Shown: in pieces, positions 6,058 through 52,871 of the stretch
Layout: each line of letters starts with the position of its first letter
Numbering within the stretch: position 1 is the stretch's first letter
DNA from: Pelobacter propionicus DSM 2379
GTDB lineage: Bacteria; Desulfobacterota; Desulfuromonadia; Geobacterales; Pseudopelobacteraceae
Length of the DNA: 64,000 bases
Reading direction: 5' to 3'
Assembly (NCBI RefSeq): GCF_000015045.1
Contig: NC_008609.1
Span: forward strand, 248,001-312,000
Notes under the pieces: model-generated
The model's input: the letters and a program-made list of their open reading frames with translations, nothing else
What the model was told of the DNA's origin: nothing
The model's database searches: none
Position numbers and translations under genes: made by a program

Positions 6058-6552
6058 CTACTCCTCCTCGCCCGACATGACGGAGCCATCCAGCAGCCAG
6101 CGCGGTTCATCCACGAAAAAATACACGTAGCGCAGCATATAGAATTCGTTGTCCTGCCCGGTGTACGGCAGAAGCAGAACACGCATCGTTTTTGGCGGGG
6201 CAACGATCGGTGTGACCGGTTCTTTCAGTAATCCACTGAATTTTTCGAACAGCGCCGACTGGTATCGAGAATAGGGGGCGTTCTCCCTGGCTTGAGGGTT
6301 CAGCGACAGAGTATTCTTGATATCGGTACAGCTCCCGGGAGCAGCGTTGTCGGTACCGCAATCGTCTTCTTTATGCTCTGGAACCGGATCATTTGGGTTG
6401 CCAGGGCCAACTGCCGACTCCTTGTAGGCGGTTTGCACCGAAACACACTTGCCATTGCTGGTTTCAGGGCAACTGAAACTGCTTTCATAGGGGTTGAGCA
6501 GGGTACAACCGCCCATTGCCAGCATTCCTATGACGGCGAGGACTTTCTTCAC
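6058..6552 (-). CDS. traV: TraV-type outer-membrane lipoprotein
   Basis: At 164 residues, it has a lipoprotein signal with lipobox MGGC (Cys16) followed by LLNPYESSFSCPE, the usual start of TraV. TraV is the outer-membrane lipoprotein of the TraB-TraK-TraV core complex (VirB7-like). It lies between traB and traC, as expected for F-type operons, and its first bases overlap traB by 4 nucleotides (6549-6552). Confidence 0.85.
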   Translation of the reverse strand: MKKVLAVIGMLAMGGCTLLNPYESSFSCPETSNGKCVSVQTAYKESAVGPGNPNDPVPEHKEDDCGTDNAAPGSCTDIKNTLSLNPQARENAPYSRYQSALFEKFSGLLKEPVTPIVAPPKTMRVLLLPYTGQDNEFYMLRYVYFFVDEPRWLLDGSVMSGEEE

Positions 6553-7802
6553 TCCGAGCCTCCCTTGGCGATCCTTTTGATTTGCAGGTTGATCCCCTCG
6601 CTGATGACCAGCGTCACCGGCTTGGTGGCTCCTACCTCGATGACCGGCATGGTCTGTTTGGCCAGTTCCATGTAGAATTTCTGGATCTCCTTGAAGCCGC
6701 TGGACAGGCCAGTTCCGGCACCGGCCATGGCGATATCCTTTGGATCTACCGTCTGGGTGGTCCCCAGTGGGCTTACCGACATGGTGGTGGCCGACGCCTT
6801 GATGGCATCACCGGCGCCGCCGAAAAAACCGGCCAACATGCTTCTGGCAATCATGGAGCCCATTTTGGCCACGACCCGACCGCGCAGGCCGATCTTGCCG
6901 TCTGCGTCCACGACGAACCCTTTGACCTTCTGGTCAACCACCGCCTGCCCCTTGCGGTCGAGGCATGACAGGGAGACCAGCAGCAGTTCGGCTCGTTCGG
7001 TGGCCAGGTTCCCCTTGCCGTCAGCGATGACGAAGCATCCCTTGAGGTTGGCCTTGACGCTGTTGGGCAGGACCGCCGGAGTCTTGACCCTGAGCAGGAC
7101 CGGCACCGGATTACCTTTGGCTTCCGAAGTGGTGGGGGCGTCCAAGCCACTCAACAGGGTCGCCTCCATAAAGGAAGGGGGCAGATAGACGGAGACCGTT
7201 CCGGCGTCTTTTTTTTTATCTTCCGCGTCATGCTTGGCGGATTTACTGGAAACGGGAGACGAGACTATGGAGATATTGCCAAGTTCCGTCTCGGCTGGAT
7301 CCGGCATCTGCCCTGCCTGAATACCCTGCGACGCAGCAGGTGGTGGAGGCAGCAAAATTGTACTGCCTTGTGGCACGGGTGGAGGAGGCGGCAGCGACTG
7401 CTTTGATAGTGCCGCTCTGCCGGAACCGGCCTTCTGAGTCTGGCCCTGCGGTTGTCCGGTGACGGAGGGAAGAGAATCAGGCGCTGCCGGAGCAGACGGC
7501 ACTTCCCCCCTTTTTTCGCGGGTAATTTCATCGAGTTTTTTCTGGAGTTCGGCAACTTTGTCGTCCCGTTTGGCTATCTCTTTCTGGCTCTCAAGAAACT
7601 GGGATTTTTCCAGGAGCTTCGGTTCGATGTTCAGGGGGACCTGCTTCGGGCTTATTGATATGGCGGGATCTTTCCCCCCGCTCATGGCAAAGTAGCCAAC
7701 AGCGAATACAAAAACGAGAATGCTGCCGGTAAGGCACCAGACGAGATTTTTACGTTTGCCGCCACCAAGTCCGTTCCAGTACGCCAGAAGCTTATCTTTC
7801 AT
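6549..7802 (-). CDS. traB: TraB-type core-complex protein (VirB10-like)
   Basis: This is an inner-membrane anchored scaffold reaching the outer membrane. After the ATG at 7802 it shows a membrane segment (LVWCLTGSILVFVFAVGYFA), a coiled coil, a Pro-rich spacer with two PPPP runs, and a C-terminal TraB/TrbI domain with a GCFVIADGKGNL segment. I prefer 7802 because AGGAG lies 7 bases upstream; 7805 and 7820 are possible starts in the same frame. The gene overlaps the end of traK by 11 bases. Confidence 0.88.
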   Translation of the reverse strand: MKDKLLAYWNGLGGGKRKNLVWCLTGSILVFVFAVGYFAMSGGKDPAISISPKQVPLNIEPKLLEKSQFLESQKEIAKRDDKVAELQKKLDEITREKRGEVPSAPAAPDSLPSVTGQPQGQTQKAGSGRAALSKQSLPPPPPVPQGSTILLPPPPAASQGIQAGQMPDPAETELGNISIVSSPVSSKSAKHDAEDKKKDAGTVSVYLPPSFMEATLLSGLDAPTTSEAKGNPVPVLLRVKTPAVLPNSVKANLKGCFVIADGKGNLATERAELLLVSLSCLDRKGQAVVDQKVKGFVVDADGKIGLRGRVVAKMGSMIARSMLAGFFGGAGDAIKASATTMSVSPLGTTQTVDPKDIAMAGAGTGLSSGFKEIQKFYMELAKQTMPVIEVGATKPVTLVISEGINLQIKRIAKGGSE

Positions 7803-8742
7803 CATCAGTCTCCTGGCCATCCTGTTCGGTGCGGTTTACGGGGGGATCTTTCTGAAGACCGGGTTTGGCAACGGGCTGCCCCTGTTGCGGCTGGTCCAAC
7901 ATCGGCAGGTCGCCGGCCAGTTTATGGGGGCCCTGTCGTTCGGCGCGCTGCTCCACCACAAAAATTCGCGATGAGTCGCCTGTCCGTAAAATGTGGCGTT
8001 CCAGGGAAATCGCTATCGGGTTTTCCGCCAGAGCTGCTCTTAGAAACATCTTTTCGTTCATCTTGAACTCGGGGGTTGCACCGCGTAGCGAAGCCTCGTA
8101 CTCCTTGATTCGAAGGCCTTCCCCTTCGATATCCACTGTCCGTTTGAGGGTGAGCAGGATTTCCTTGAACGTAATGAACCGCTTCTCCTGCTTGTTGATG
8201 GTGTAAGAGTCGGGGATATTCTCGGTGTAGACCTCCCTGATGGCCTTGAGAACTTTCTTCTCAAAGGGCAGACCGGAATACAGGGAGAGGTTCTCCCTGA
8301 TTTTCTTCTCCAGGCCGGAAGAAAGCCGGATCGTCTGGGAAGGAACCCTCTGGGGAAAGGCAACCATGCTGAAGACTTTGTCACCGCAGACGACATAAAA
8401 CTCAGTCGGTGTCGAAGAGTAGGAAAACTTGTCCCCTTTCTTCACCACCTTGAACTTCACAAATGCATCCTTGCCGGTGATCTTGACCGTGATCCCCTTC
8501 TCGGTTGAAGTGAGCACTTCACTGATCTCGCTGGGGCAGGCAATGCGGTTGATGTCTGAACTCGACAGACGAATGGCGGTTGCTGCCTCAGGTAAGACCA
8601 CCGTCGGGAATTCACCTTCAGCCGGTTTCTCGTTAGACGTGTCAACGGTGGTCTTCTGTTTCTCGATTCCCACGTGGTCAGCAGAATGGGCCACTGCCGG
8701 TGCCAGCAATGCGACCAGTAATGCAAACATTCCGCGCATCAT
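7792..8742 (-). CDS. traK: TraK-type secretin-like periplasmic protein
   Basis: It encodes 316 residues with an N-terminal signal peptide ending near AHSADH. Position between traE and traB, size and the beta-rich secretory character fit TraK, the VirB9-like component that bridges TraV and TraB at the outer membrane. There is a Gly-rich ribosome site (GGGGGGGC) before the ATG pair at 8742/8739. The C-terminal tail is rich in Gln, Pro and Asp and overlaps the start of traB. The assignment rests on both position and sequence character. Confidence 0.82.
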   Translation of the reverse strand: MMRGMFALLVALLAPAVAHSADHVGIEKQKTTVDTSNEKPAEGEFPTVVLPEAATAIRLSSSDINRIACPSEISEVLTSTEKGITVKITGKDAFVKFKVVKKGDKFSYSSTPTEFYVVCGDKVFSMVAFPQRVPSQTIRLSSGLEKKIRENLSLYSGLPFEKKVLKAIREVYTENIPDSYTINKQEKRFITFKEILLTLKRTVDIEGEGLRIKEYEASLRGATPEFKMNEKMFLRAALAENPIAISLERHILRTGDSSRIFVVEQRAERQGPHKLAGDLPMLDQPQQGQPVAKPGLQKDPPVNRTEQDGQETDDER

Positions 8743-27889: not shown

Positions 27890-28948
27890 TTATATTATGC
27901 TCAATACTCCCCATTCTAAGTCTAAAATCTTCATAGCATTTATCAGTTTTTCCTTCAGCGGTTCAAAATCCTCAATATCTACAACGTATTTCCTGTAATT
28001 ATTTTTCGTTTCTGGCATTACACTGCGCAAAATATATTCATTCTGAAATGCACCGGTGTTACCATTTTTATCTTCCGCAGAATAGTTACTCCAATCATCT
28101 TCATAATATTCTGGGTAATTGCCTGATCCTTCAAAACGTCGAAAATTGTAATTCATTCCATTGATATCTTGGAATTTACAATCCCGTAAAAAGTCAGATA
28201 GCTTGTCAATGTTGAATTTATTCAATAACATTCTTCTATCTGGAGTGTATTCAAGCCTGACCCTATTAAATGTGTCGAGTGGCCAACCTTTACCTTTTTT
28301 TTTGTCACAATCGTTTCCGCGTGGATAGATCTTAGTATCACCACCATAATGCTGAAACATAGACAACCGTAACTTATCATTCCATTCAGCTGTATCAATG
28401 GAATTCTGTGTAGCATCTTTTGCATAAGGGATGAAAACAGCACGTCTTAACAACCAAAAAAGCCACTCAACATCTGCGGGTGTATCACAATAGATATCAA
28501 TGGTATTTTCAACGGACGATACACACATATTTGGAATCAAATTGTTCAATTTAATTAGTGAGTTATAGAAGTCAGATAAAGAAACACATTCTTTAGGAGT
28601 CACATCCAAACAAAATGGTGGACAACAGCCTTTATTGCGGTAAGTAAAGATATTCAGCTTATACATATCCATATCTACTGTTAGTTGCACATTGTAATTT
28701 GGCATTCGATCATCAGGAACAAATTCAGAATTAAATCCAGCTTTAGGGAATATTTTCTTGAAAGAGTCGTAATCATACAATCCCTGCATTTTTTGTCCTT
28801 TGATTTTTTCGCCAGACAATTTGATTCGATGAATTTTTGCCTCAACAGCAACAATTTTATCAAAGGCATCTCTAGTGAGAGACCTTTGCATACATTCAGC
28901 CATAGCCTTGTGTCTTTCATGCGGGTTCATTTCACTGATGCGTCTCAT
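27890..28948 (-). CDS. Rep-like protein of the small element (uncertain)
   Basis: The ATG at 28948 has GGAG 5 bases upstream, giving 352 residues. Segments such as IDIYCDTPADVEWLF, KIYPRGNDC and FNRVRLEYTPDRRMLLNKFN resemble the pattern of rolling-circle replication initiation factors (Rep_trans type: a short strand, then R-x-E), but I cannot identify a secure catalytic Tyr. It is the last gene before the right end. It could initiate replication of the excised circle; this is inference. Confidence 0.55.
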   Translation of the reverse strand: MRRISEMNPHERHKAMAECMQRSLTRDAFDKIVAVEAKIHRIKLSGEKIKGQKMQGLYDYDSFKKIFPKAGFNSEFVPDDRMPNYNVQLTVDMDMYKLNIFTYRNKGCCPPFCLDVTPKECVSLSDFYNSLIKLNNLIPNMCVSSVENTIDIYCDTPADVEWLFWLLRRAVFIPYAKDATQNSIDTAEWNDKLRLSMFQHYGGDTKIYPRGNDCDKKKGKGWPLDTFNRVRLEYTPDRRMLLNKFNIDKLSDFLRDCKFQDINGMNYNFRRFEGSGNYPEYYEDDWSNYSAEDKNGNTGAFQNEYILRSVMPETKNNYRKYVVDIEDFEPLKEKLINAMKILDLEWGVLSII

Positions 28949-29064
28949 ATTTTCTCCCCCATGCAAAAGTATCCCTCCAGGTTTATATTCACTTCATTGC
29001 TATGAAGCTCCTTGAACCAAAGATCCATTTCTGTGGATATGAAATTTTGAGTGGATGGGGATTA

Positions 29065-51146: not shown

Positions 51147-52871
51147 TCAGGCCTCGCGGATCTCGGTGATGGTTCCGCCGAAGATGCGTAGGGCCTCCCG
51201 TACCAGCGGGTGCTCGTTGACCTCCTGTTTCAGCTCCTGCTGGCGCTGTTCACGATCGCTCTTTTTTTTTTCCGCCAGCGAGGGGGGGGCACCGGCTGTC
51301 TCGCGGGCGATGGACTGTATGCGGATATTGGTCTCCTGGCCGGTGAATTCCCGGGCCAGCGCCCTGAGTTGGGCGATGGAGTCGGTATCCTGGATGTTTG
51401 CCAGATAGTAGCTGCCGGCCGGGAAGCCGATCTCCATCAGACCAGCCTCCTGTCGGATGGGGCTGCCGTGTTCCAGCACCGAGCCGAGGGCCGGGTCCTT
51501 TTCGCTGGCGAAGCTGACGAAGCGCTCCCAGGAGGGAAGGGCAGTGTCTCTCAGTTTTTCCGGCGCTGGGGGGGCGGAAGGTTCGGGAGGTACGGAAGCG
51601 GCCGCAGGTTGCTGCTGTGGTCTCTCGGTTGGTTGTTGTTGGCGCTGCTCCCCGACCGGCGGCATGCGGACGCTGTCCCGGGGAGAGGGTGTTGTCCACG
51701 TGGTGCCACTCTCAAGCGCCTGTAGTTTTTCCAATAATTCCTGGATCGGTATCACCGGCTCCAGGGTGGCCGCCTTCAGCAGGGCGATCTCCAGAACCAG
51801 CCTGGGGAAGCTGGCGTGGGCCATCTCGCCGTCGGCTCTGATCAGGAGCGTCAGCCGGCGCTGGATATCCTGGCTGGAGAATCCGTTTGCCTGGCGACGC
51901 AGATCGTCCAGTTCCGGCGCTGACAGGTCCAGGATCTCTTCCGGTTTCCGGACCGAGCTTACCACCATCAGGTTGCGGAGCTGCTCGATCAGCTCCTGGC
52001 AGAACTGGCGCAGGTTGTATCCCACCTCGTCCACCTGTCTGATGCCTGCCAGCACTGCCTGGGTGTCGGCTGCGAAGATGGCTGCGGAGATGTTCGCCAG
52101 CAGCCTGCGGTCAACGGCGCCGATCAGGGTGGCCGTATCTTCGTCGCTTACGTTGCTGCCGCAGCAGGCCAGCACCTGGTCGAAGGCGGTCAGGGAGTCG
52201 CGCATGCTGCCGTCCCCCTTGCGGGCGATCAGGGCCAAGGCCGAATCGTTGATGCTGATCCCCTCGGCGTCGGCGATCTGGCGCAGGCGGCCGATGATCT
52301 TGGCCAGCGGGATGCGCTTGAAGTCGAAGCGCTGGCAGCGGGACAGGATGGTGATGGGGAGTTTGTGCGGTTCGGTGGTGGCAAAGATGAACTTGACGTG
52401 CTCGGGAGGTTCCTCAAGCGTCTTCAGCAGGGCGTTGAAGGCGTTGGTGGAGAGCATGTGGACTTCATCGATGATGAAGATCTTGTAGCGGCTGTGGGAA
52501 GGGAGATACTTGGCGTTGTCGCGCAGTTCGCGGATGTCGTCCACGCCGGTATTGGACGCGCCGTCTATCTCGAAGACGTCGGTGGATGTGCCCTTGGTGA
52601 TTTCGATGCACAAGGGGCAGGTGTTGCAGGGTTCGGTGGAGACGCCCCGTTCGCAGTTGAGGGCCTTGGCCAGGATGCGGGCCGTGCTGGTCTTGCCGAC
52701 ACCGCGGGCTCCGCTGAACAGGAAGGCGTGGGCCACGCGGCCGGAATCGATTGCGTTCTGAAGGGTGCGGCTGACGTGTTCCTGGCCGGTCAGTTCCGAA
52801 AGGGTCTGGGGACGGTATTTCCTGGCCAGGACTTCATAGTGCGTGCCGTTGGACAAGAGATCGAACCTCAC
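51147..52871 (-). CDS. dnaX: DNA polymerase III tau/gamma subunit
   Basis: The 574-residue protein has Walker A GARGVGKTS, zinc cysteines (CERGVSTEPCNTCPLC), Walker B IFIIDEVHML and the RCQRFDFKRI segment. Domain III and a Pro/Gln-rich linker follow. Ten consecutive A's (mRNA; plus-strand T's 51262-51271) occur at codons 534-537. A one-base slip in either direction ends translation after a few codons, losing about 36-40 residues. Confidence 0.93.
   Translation of the reverse strand: MRFDLLSNGTHYEVLARKYRPQTLSELTGQEHVSRTLQNAIDSGRVAHAFLFSGARGVGKTSTARILAKALNCERGVSTEPCNTCPLCIEITKGTSTDVFEIDGASNTGVDDIRELRDNAKYLPSHSRYKIFIIDEVHMLSTNAFNALLKTLEEPPEHVKFIFATTEPHKLPITILSRCQRFDFKRIPLAKIIGRLRQIADAEGISINDSALALIARKGDGSMRDSLTAFDQVLACCGSNVSDEDTATLIGAVDRRLLANISAAIFAADTQAVLAGIRQVDEVGYNLRQFCQELIEQLRNLMVVSSVRKPEEILDLSAPELDDLRRQANGFSSQDIQRRLTLLIRADGEMAHASFPRLVLEIALLKAATLEPVIPIQELLEKLQALESGTTWTTPSPRDSVRMPPVGEQRQQQPTERPQQQPAAASVPPEPSAPPAPEKLRDTALPSWERFVSFASEKDPALGSVLEHGSPIRQEAGLMEIGFPAGSYYLANIQDTDSIAQLRALAREFTGQETNIRIQSIARETAGAPPSLAEKKKSDREQRQQELKQEVNEHPLVREALRIFGGTITEIREA

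Follow-up and report, generated by a model that had tools for sequence, protein, structure and literature searches.

A conserved adenine run near the 3' end of dnaX is a probable recoding site for a tail-trimmed DnaX in Geobacterales

We found that a run of ten A's near the 3' end of dnaX in Pelobacter propionicus DSM 2379 is retained, at nine A's or more, in nearly all dnaX genes examined from the order Geobacterales. Stop codons in both shifted reading frames are retained with it. These results suggest that the run is a recoding site held by selection in nearly all Geobacterales examined. We think that it is probably a programmed site, most likely one of transcriptional slippage, and that it would yield a DnaX trimmed at its C-terminal tail.

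The gene lies on the minus strand of the window (the whole stretch of 64,000 nucleotides that was analysed; Table 1), and the plus strand reads T10 where dnaX in its sense orientation reads G-A10-G. The open reading frame, counted from GTG, encodes 574 amino acids, and the family match begins at residue 11. Pfam places gamma/tau domain III at residues 241-382 and DUF3646 (tau C-terminal) at residues 469-567, the latter with a match below the cut-off. An earlier note on this DNA had reported ten A's near the 3' end of dnaX. They are present in the window sequence and are the longest A-run in the window. The note had placed G-A10-G at codons 533-537, which is about right; the codons of the run itself are E534, K535, K536 and K537 (0-based CDS position 1600). 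It had also claimed that one added A leads to E-R-S-stop and that one lost A leads to a stop about ten codons later, and counting on the sequence located a TGA for each. Ten nt upstream of the A10 run, at window positions 51282-51289, the mRNA sense reads C8; among 11 other contexts compared, only that of G007 had C8 at this position.

Table 1. Positions in the window of dnaX, the A-run, the shifted-frame stops and the predicted parts of the C-terminal domain
Feature	Position	Strand	Basis
dnaX, DNA polymerase III subunits tau/gamma	51147..52871	-	NCBIfam PRK14965, E 5e-282
Core of tau domain V, codons 450-521, predicted to be kept in the short form	51309..51524	-	AlphaFold2 model
A10 slip-prone run, GAA AAA AAA AAG	51262..51271	-	sequence; run of at least nine in 124/130 dnaX genes of the order
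Tail predicted to be lost in the short form, codons 538-574: rest of helix 532-553, helix 555-564, HPxV motif	51150..51260	-	AlphaFold2 model
UGA of the -1 frame, after E-R-S (one A added, or a -1 ribosome slip); predicted product 540 aa	51250..51252	-	sequence
UGA of the +1 frame (one A lost or two gained); predicted product 546 aa	51230..51232	-	sequence

The run is conserved across the order. We searched 141 genomes of the order with the C-terminal 117 residues of DnaX; 132 matched and 9 had no match to the tail. The order-wide set comprised 130 genomes, leaving out three second loci and two genes broken at the run (in G140 and G051, discussed below). The run was ten A's long in 74 of these genes, nine in 49, twelve in one and shorter in six. 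For comparison, synonymous codons were redrawn from each gene's own usage with the protein held fixed, and the six genes with shorter runs were scored at their longest A-run. At least nine A's were observed in 124/130 genes, compared to 15.4 expected, in a resampling that takes genomes as independent; a genus-weighted version, computed separately, gave 27.4/29 compared to 1.6 expected. In family f3, which holds Geomesophilobacter, the run was present in 42/47 genes compared to 0.6 expected. By this synonymous-codon test on 130 genomes, the A10 run exceeds chance. The earlier note had regarded relatives using AAG codons as evidence against slippage. We found that relatives mostly keep 9-12 A's, far above the synonymous expectation, and have not switched to AAG. 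The six exceptions have A7 (G058), A6 (G099), A8 (G093), A4 (G062 and G092) and A3 (G061). The run is lost in genus g19 (two genomes) and kept in 5/8 of genus g28 and 3/4 of genus g13. Since six of 130 genes do without a run of nine, the run is not indispensable.

The run persists while the amino acids at its ends change. The codon that supplies the first A is GAA in 121 of the 124 run-bearing genes, GGA in two and GCA in one. In the family to which P. propionicus belongs (its own family), it is GAA in 67/70 genes and GGA or GCA in the other three, so the glutamate is replaceable there and the A is retained. GAA makes up 52% of the Glu codons upstream, and the heptamer A_AAA_AAG does not require it. 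At the other end of the run, in families f3 and f4, the codon that supplies the last A encodes Ser, Arg, Lys, Thr or Asn and always begins with A; AGY makes up 30% of the Ser codons upstream. Because residues at both ends vary while the A's persist, the length of the run looks selected.

We found that stops in the shifted frames are also enriched. Distances were measured in shifted codons, counted from the codon that overlaps the last A's of the run. A -1-frame stop occurred within the first four shifted codons in 117/130 genes, compared to 33.3 expected by synonymous resampling, and a +1-frame stop within the first eleven in 115/130, compared to 62.5 expected. In the window's dnaX the stops are the fifth (-1) and eleventh (+1) shifted codons, and this gene is one of the 13/130 that miss the four-codon cut for the -1 frame, in its case by one codon. 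Among the 124 run-bearing genes, 119 use TGA and five TAA as the -1 stop, which is preceded by two shifted codons in 105. The codon that follows the run codon ends in T in all 51 genes (51/51) of families f3 and f4 and thereby supplies the T of TGA; in 41 of them it is CTT, which accounts for 15% of the Leu codons upstream. This T-ending codon is the mark of selection for a stop in the shifted frame.

Long A-runs are present elsewhere in the genome. The 4.24-Mb genome of P. propionicus gave 39 overlapping hits for A or T runs of at least nine, several of them within open reading frames, so that avoidance of A9 is not absolute. Twenty other stretches of this genome, sampled for 345,657 coding nt, contained one sense A-run of at least nine; a sample of 346,032 coding nt from G056 contained none. 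Conservation of A9 in traB was tried as a negative control and failed, as the A9 of traB is itself conserved. Lysine codon use in sampled open reading frames was used in its place. None of 13 KKK stretches in P. propionicus, and none of 11 in G056, used nine or more A's; two of those in G056 were AAA AAA AAG (eight A's). Among the 124 run-bearing dnaX genes of the order, we found three other A-runs of at least eight, none of them recurrent.

In the window, an open reading frame for a TrbI/TraB-like conjugation protein (6549-7820, minus strand) contains A9, as GAT AAA AAA AAA GAC, at window positions 7209-7217, just before the TrbI domain (212-412). The A9 was kept in 16/16 matches that span the site, where synonymous resampling predicts 1.28. 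Among these 16 are the copy in the window and a paralogue; the other two of the 18 matches are too short to reach the site. It was also present on Geobacter anodireducens plasmid pSD (L392), and three TraB loci of other orders had no A-run of seven or more. Stops in the shifted frames lie 16-53 codons downstream of the traB run, none of them near it. A conserved A9 therefore need not imply a short product. It is possible that traB is a second gene subject to slippage. A further A9 (window 28295-28303, minus strand) lies in the open reading frame 27890-28966, which encodes 358 aa with no Pfam match above the cut-off.

To characterize what slippage would remove, we modeled residues 450-574 of DnaX with AlphaFold2, using 19 relatives (mean pLDDT 91.7, pTM 0.72). 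In the model a core extends to residue 521 and is followed by a long helix (532-553) and a further helix (555-564); the A10 run maps to the beginning of the long helix. Structural matches were obtained with VIA-align. The best was E. coli tau (5fku_E; Z 8.3, rmsd 2.2, 99 aligned), with model residues 1-107 aligned onto tau 525-623 (model residue 1 is DnaX residue 450). The fourth and fifth in rank were 2aya (Z 8.0, rmsd 6.1, 101 aligned) and 5fkv_E (Z 8.0, rmsd 3.0, 99 aligned). Chains of two DnaA domain I complexes scored Z 8.1 on the 70-residue core. Since these chains reach nearly the same Z, the Z score alone is weak, and the assignment to tau domain V also rests on the full-length family match. 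A PDB sequence search with the C-terminal domain returned nothing credible, and Foldseek gave no match at E of 0.001 or less, with E. coli tau ranked first at E 0.027. Based on the model, the C-terminal domain is the predicted fold of E. coli tau domain V, and we estimate that the cut would lie near E. coli tau residue 600.

In E. coli, the end of tau binds the polymerase. The earlier note had estimated that slippage would remove only the last 36-40 residues, perhaps the polymerase-contact tail. The model agrees well with this: approximately 37 residues would be removed, and they form the predicted end of tau domain V. By analogy with E. coli, the short form would keep the clamp-loader part of the protein and lose its grip on the polymerase. 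The H and P of the tail are at least 90% conserved in 20 aligned proteins and are among the most conserved positions. This high conservation suggests that the full-length product is needed as well. The tail is in frame at the run in 130/132 genomes, as it is in the 574-codon frame of the window; in some draft genomes dnaX breaks, or its contig ends, elsewhere in the gene. Two such cases, a frame break in G029 and a split gene in G005, raised the prospect of a second site near residue 430, placed as in E. coli. We rejected this candidate. The G029 break falls within a Pro/Ala linker that is rich in GC and contains a G7 tract, and the G005 pieces are the ends of two contigs; we took both as matters of sequencing or assembly and not of recoding.

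How might the short form be made? RNA polymerase would slip on the nine or more A's and produce a pool of dnaX mRNAs with A's gained or missing. In-frame mRNAs would encode full-length, tau-like DnaX. Off-frame mRNAs would meet a stop a few codons on (-1) or some ten codons on (+1). The resulting short DnaX would be gamma-like: the core of domain V and the clamp-loader domains would remain, and the tail that likely holds Pol III alpha would be gone. Slippage itself, the ratio of the forms and the loss of alpha binding are what we infer from this arrangement. We favor transcriptional slippage because a run of at least nine with stops in both frames is the layout of Thermus, and because no stimulators were found here. 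According to one study, E. coli RNA polymerase did not slip detectably on runs of fewer than eight A's (PMC6260861), and selection against runs is described as becoming visible, in many genomes, at a length of nine (PMC1088944).

The same short product could also come from a uniform mRNA, by E. coli-type -1 ribosomal frameshifting on A_AAA_AAG or A_AAA_AAA. Such frameshifting is described as using a heptamer, a Shine-Dalgarno-like element and a stem-loop (PMC3711429). The heptamer is present in part of the order: the run ends in AAG, forming A_AAA_AAG, in 67/70 genes of the own family and in 3/3 of f2, the E. coli dnaX string AAAAAAGAGTGA is found in 32/70 genes of the own family, and G058 keeps the heptamer on A7 alone. 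The strong conservation of the -1 stop is likewise what ribosomal frameshifting would need. However, the stimulators were not found. In 56 of the 124 run-bearing genes (at most three per genus), a Shine-Dalgarno-like core of at least four letters within the 18 nt upstream of the run was found in only one (1/56), and the 66 nt after the run gave no stem-loop signal (mean z +0.17 compared to synonymous resampling, 56 genes, pseudoknots left out). In addition, the run is kept at nine or more although the heptamer needs seven, the +1 stop is enriched too, and in families f3 and f4 the run ends in AAG in only 2/51 genes; A_AAA_AAA is reported to be much less shift-prone in E. coli (PMC5009743). On this evidence we regard -1 ribosomal frameshifting as rather unlikely to be the explanation. 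A contribution from ribosomal slippage is possible in the own family, where the heptamer, which the earlier note had not mentioned, and AAAAAAGAGTGA occur.

Other explanations dispense with a functional short protein or with recoding. The run might be kept for a pause in translation, or as an mRNA feature, on poly-lysine. The traB homologues of the same order, with an A9 far from any shifted stop, would fit this notion. In dnaX, however, the stops persist in both shifted frames despite codon preference, and the A's are retained even where the amino acids at either end of the run differ; we consider a pause improbable. Alternatively, the run might vary in length in the genome and toggle full-length tau off and on. 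Two of the 132 genomes (G140 = L223 and G051 = L230) do have the tail out of frame by run length. Both assemblies are drafts (370 and 60 contigs), in which consensus error is equally likely, and the tail is in frame in the other 130; phase variation at the DNA level is thus highly improbable. If the two drafts are not assembly errors, full-length DnaX in them would depend on slippage. Chance, or shared ancestry of the KKK stretch, would account for the EKKK peptide in most DnaX proteins of the own family. It is contradicted by the resampling, in which run and stops exceed the synonymous null across 29 genera, and by the lysine codons of the two sampled genomes, where KKK elsewhere is never written with nine A's. 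We hold this explanation to be the least credible, close to negligible.

Returning to the run as a putative slippage site, we found that it is rare in other orders of the same class. We surveyed 60 genomes, 58 of which could be read at the tail, the sequences of G161 and G273 being truncated. A run of at least nine at the tail site was found only in genus g42 (G167, G171 and G174), indicating that it is not a general trait of the class; G239 had A8 at the tail site. In genus g42 (probably Desulfuromonas), 7/8 readable genes have A9-A11 at the same place, in two start phases, and the eighth (G170) has no run. Mid-gene runs of at least nine occurred in G231 (A10 at codon 426) and G239 (A9 at codon 418).

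Runs were also seen in dnaX of more distant bacteria. Fibrobacter has A10 near codon 394 in 5/5 loci (L097, L098, L102, L104 and L105), with stops two (-1 frame) and zero (+1 frame) codons on, and this is likely a slippage site nearer the classical gamma position. In Pyrinomonadaceae and other Acidobacteriota (L073, L075, L077 and L093), codons 416-420 contain A9 as GAA AAA AAA ACT, followed after one codon by a +1 stop and after 4-8 codons by -1 stops; this A9 is missing from the other acidobacterial dnaX loci of the same set. Two Neomarinimicrobiota loci (L066 and L081) have A9 at codon 387 and a Cloacimonadota locus (L055), like Geobacterales, has A9 close to the 3' end, at codon 516 of about 550. 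In all three, stops lie close by in both shifted frames.

Recoding of dnaX is already known from E. coli, Thermus and the GeneTack set, and proteolysis of DnaX is known from Caulobacter. As far as our searches reach, the near order-wide conservation in Geobacterales, the second occurrence in genus g42, and a dnaX site closer to the 3' end than that of E. coli or Thermus are new. Among the papers listed by a literature search, covered by title and opening of the abstract, none reports this site. It seems to us evenly balanced whether a third kind of short DnaX exists in nearly the whole order, namely a 'tail-less tau' from which slippage removes only the polymerase-holding end. If so, evolution would repeatedly build a clamp loader with fewer polymerase grips, and not lose domains IV and V as such. 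The role of short DnaX in E. coli is described as long disputed (PMC5009743), and a strongly selected site at which only the probable polymerase-contact tail is trimmed would separate loss of the polymerase grip from loss of the helicase-binding domain. Recoding to a shorter product has been called difficult to predict by comparison (PMC1088944); it may be recognizable from run length together with waiting stops held against codon preference.

The closest known systems are those of Thermus thermophilus, E. coli, the GeneTack set and Caulobacter. In T. thermophilus dnaX, as in Geobacterales, the zero frame of a sense run (A9) encodes full-length tau, and a -1 UGA lies two codons on (PMC4320859, PMC1088944). 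Its -2 UGA lies sixteen codons on, and a translational frameshift signature is also described there (PMC4320859). The Thermus run is seven-eighths through the gene (PMC1088944), whereas the window's run is at codon 534 of 574 (93%). Slippage in Thermus has been measured (as cited in PMC4320859 and PMC1088944); for the Geobacterales site it is predicted. E. coli dnaX shares A_AAA_AAG followed by a -1 stop, and shares AAAAAAGAGTGA with the own-family genes noted above. In contrast to the trimming proposed here, the gamma form of E. coli stops at codon 431 of 643 (feature coordinates), with about a third of tau lost, and its site has the Shine-Dalgarno-like and stem-loop stimulators that were not found in the 56 genes. 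The two-ORF dnaX genes of GeneTack share poly-A recoding, with transcriptional realignment predicted, but recoding is described as required for tau in those genes (PMC3711429), whereas tau is the in-frame product here. In Caulobacter a shorter DnaX is made from tau and is reported to matter for growth, but it is the ClpXP protease, not recoding, that makes the short form (PMC5422525).
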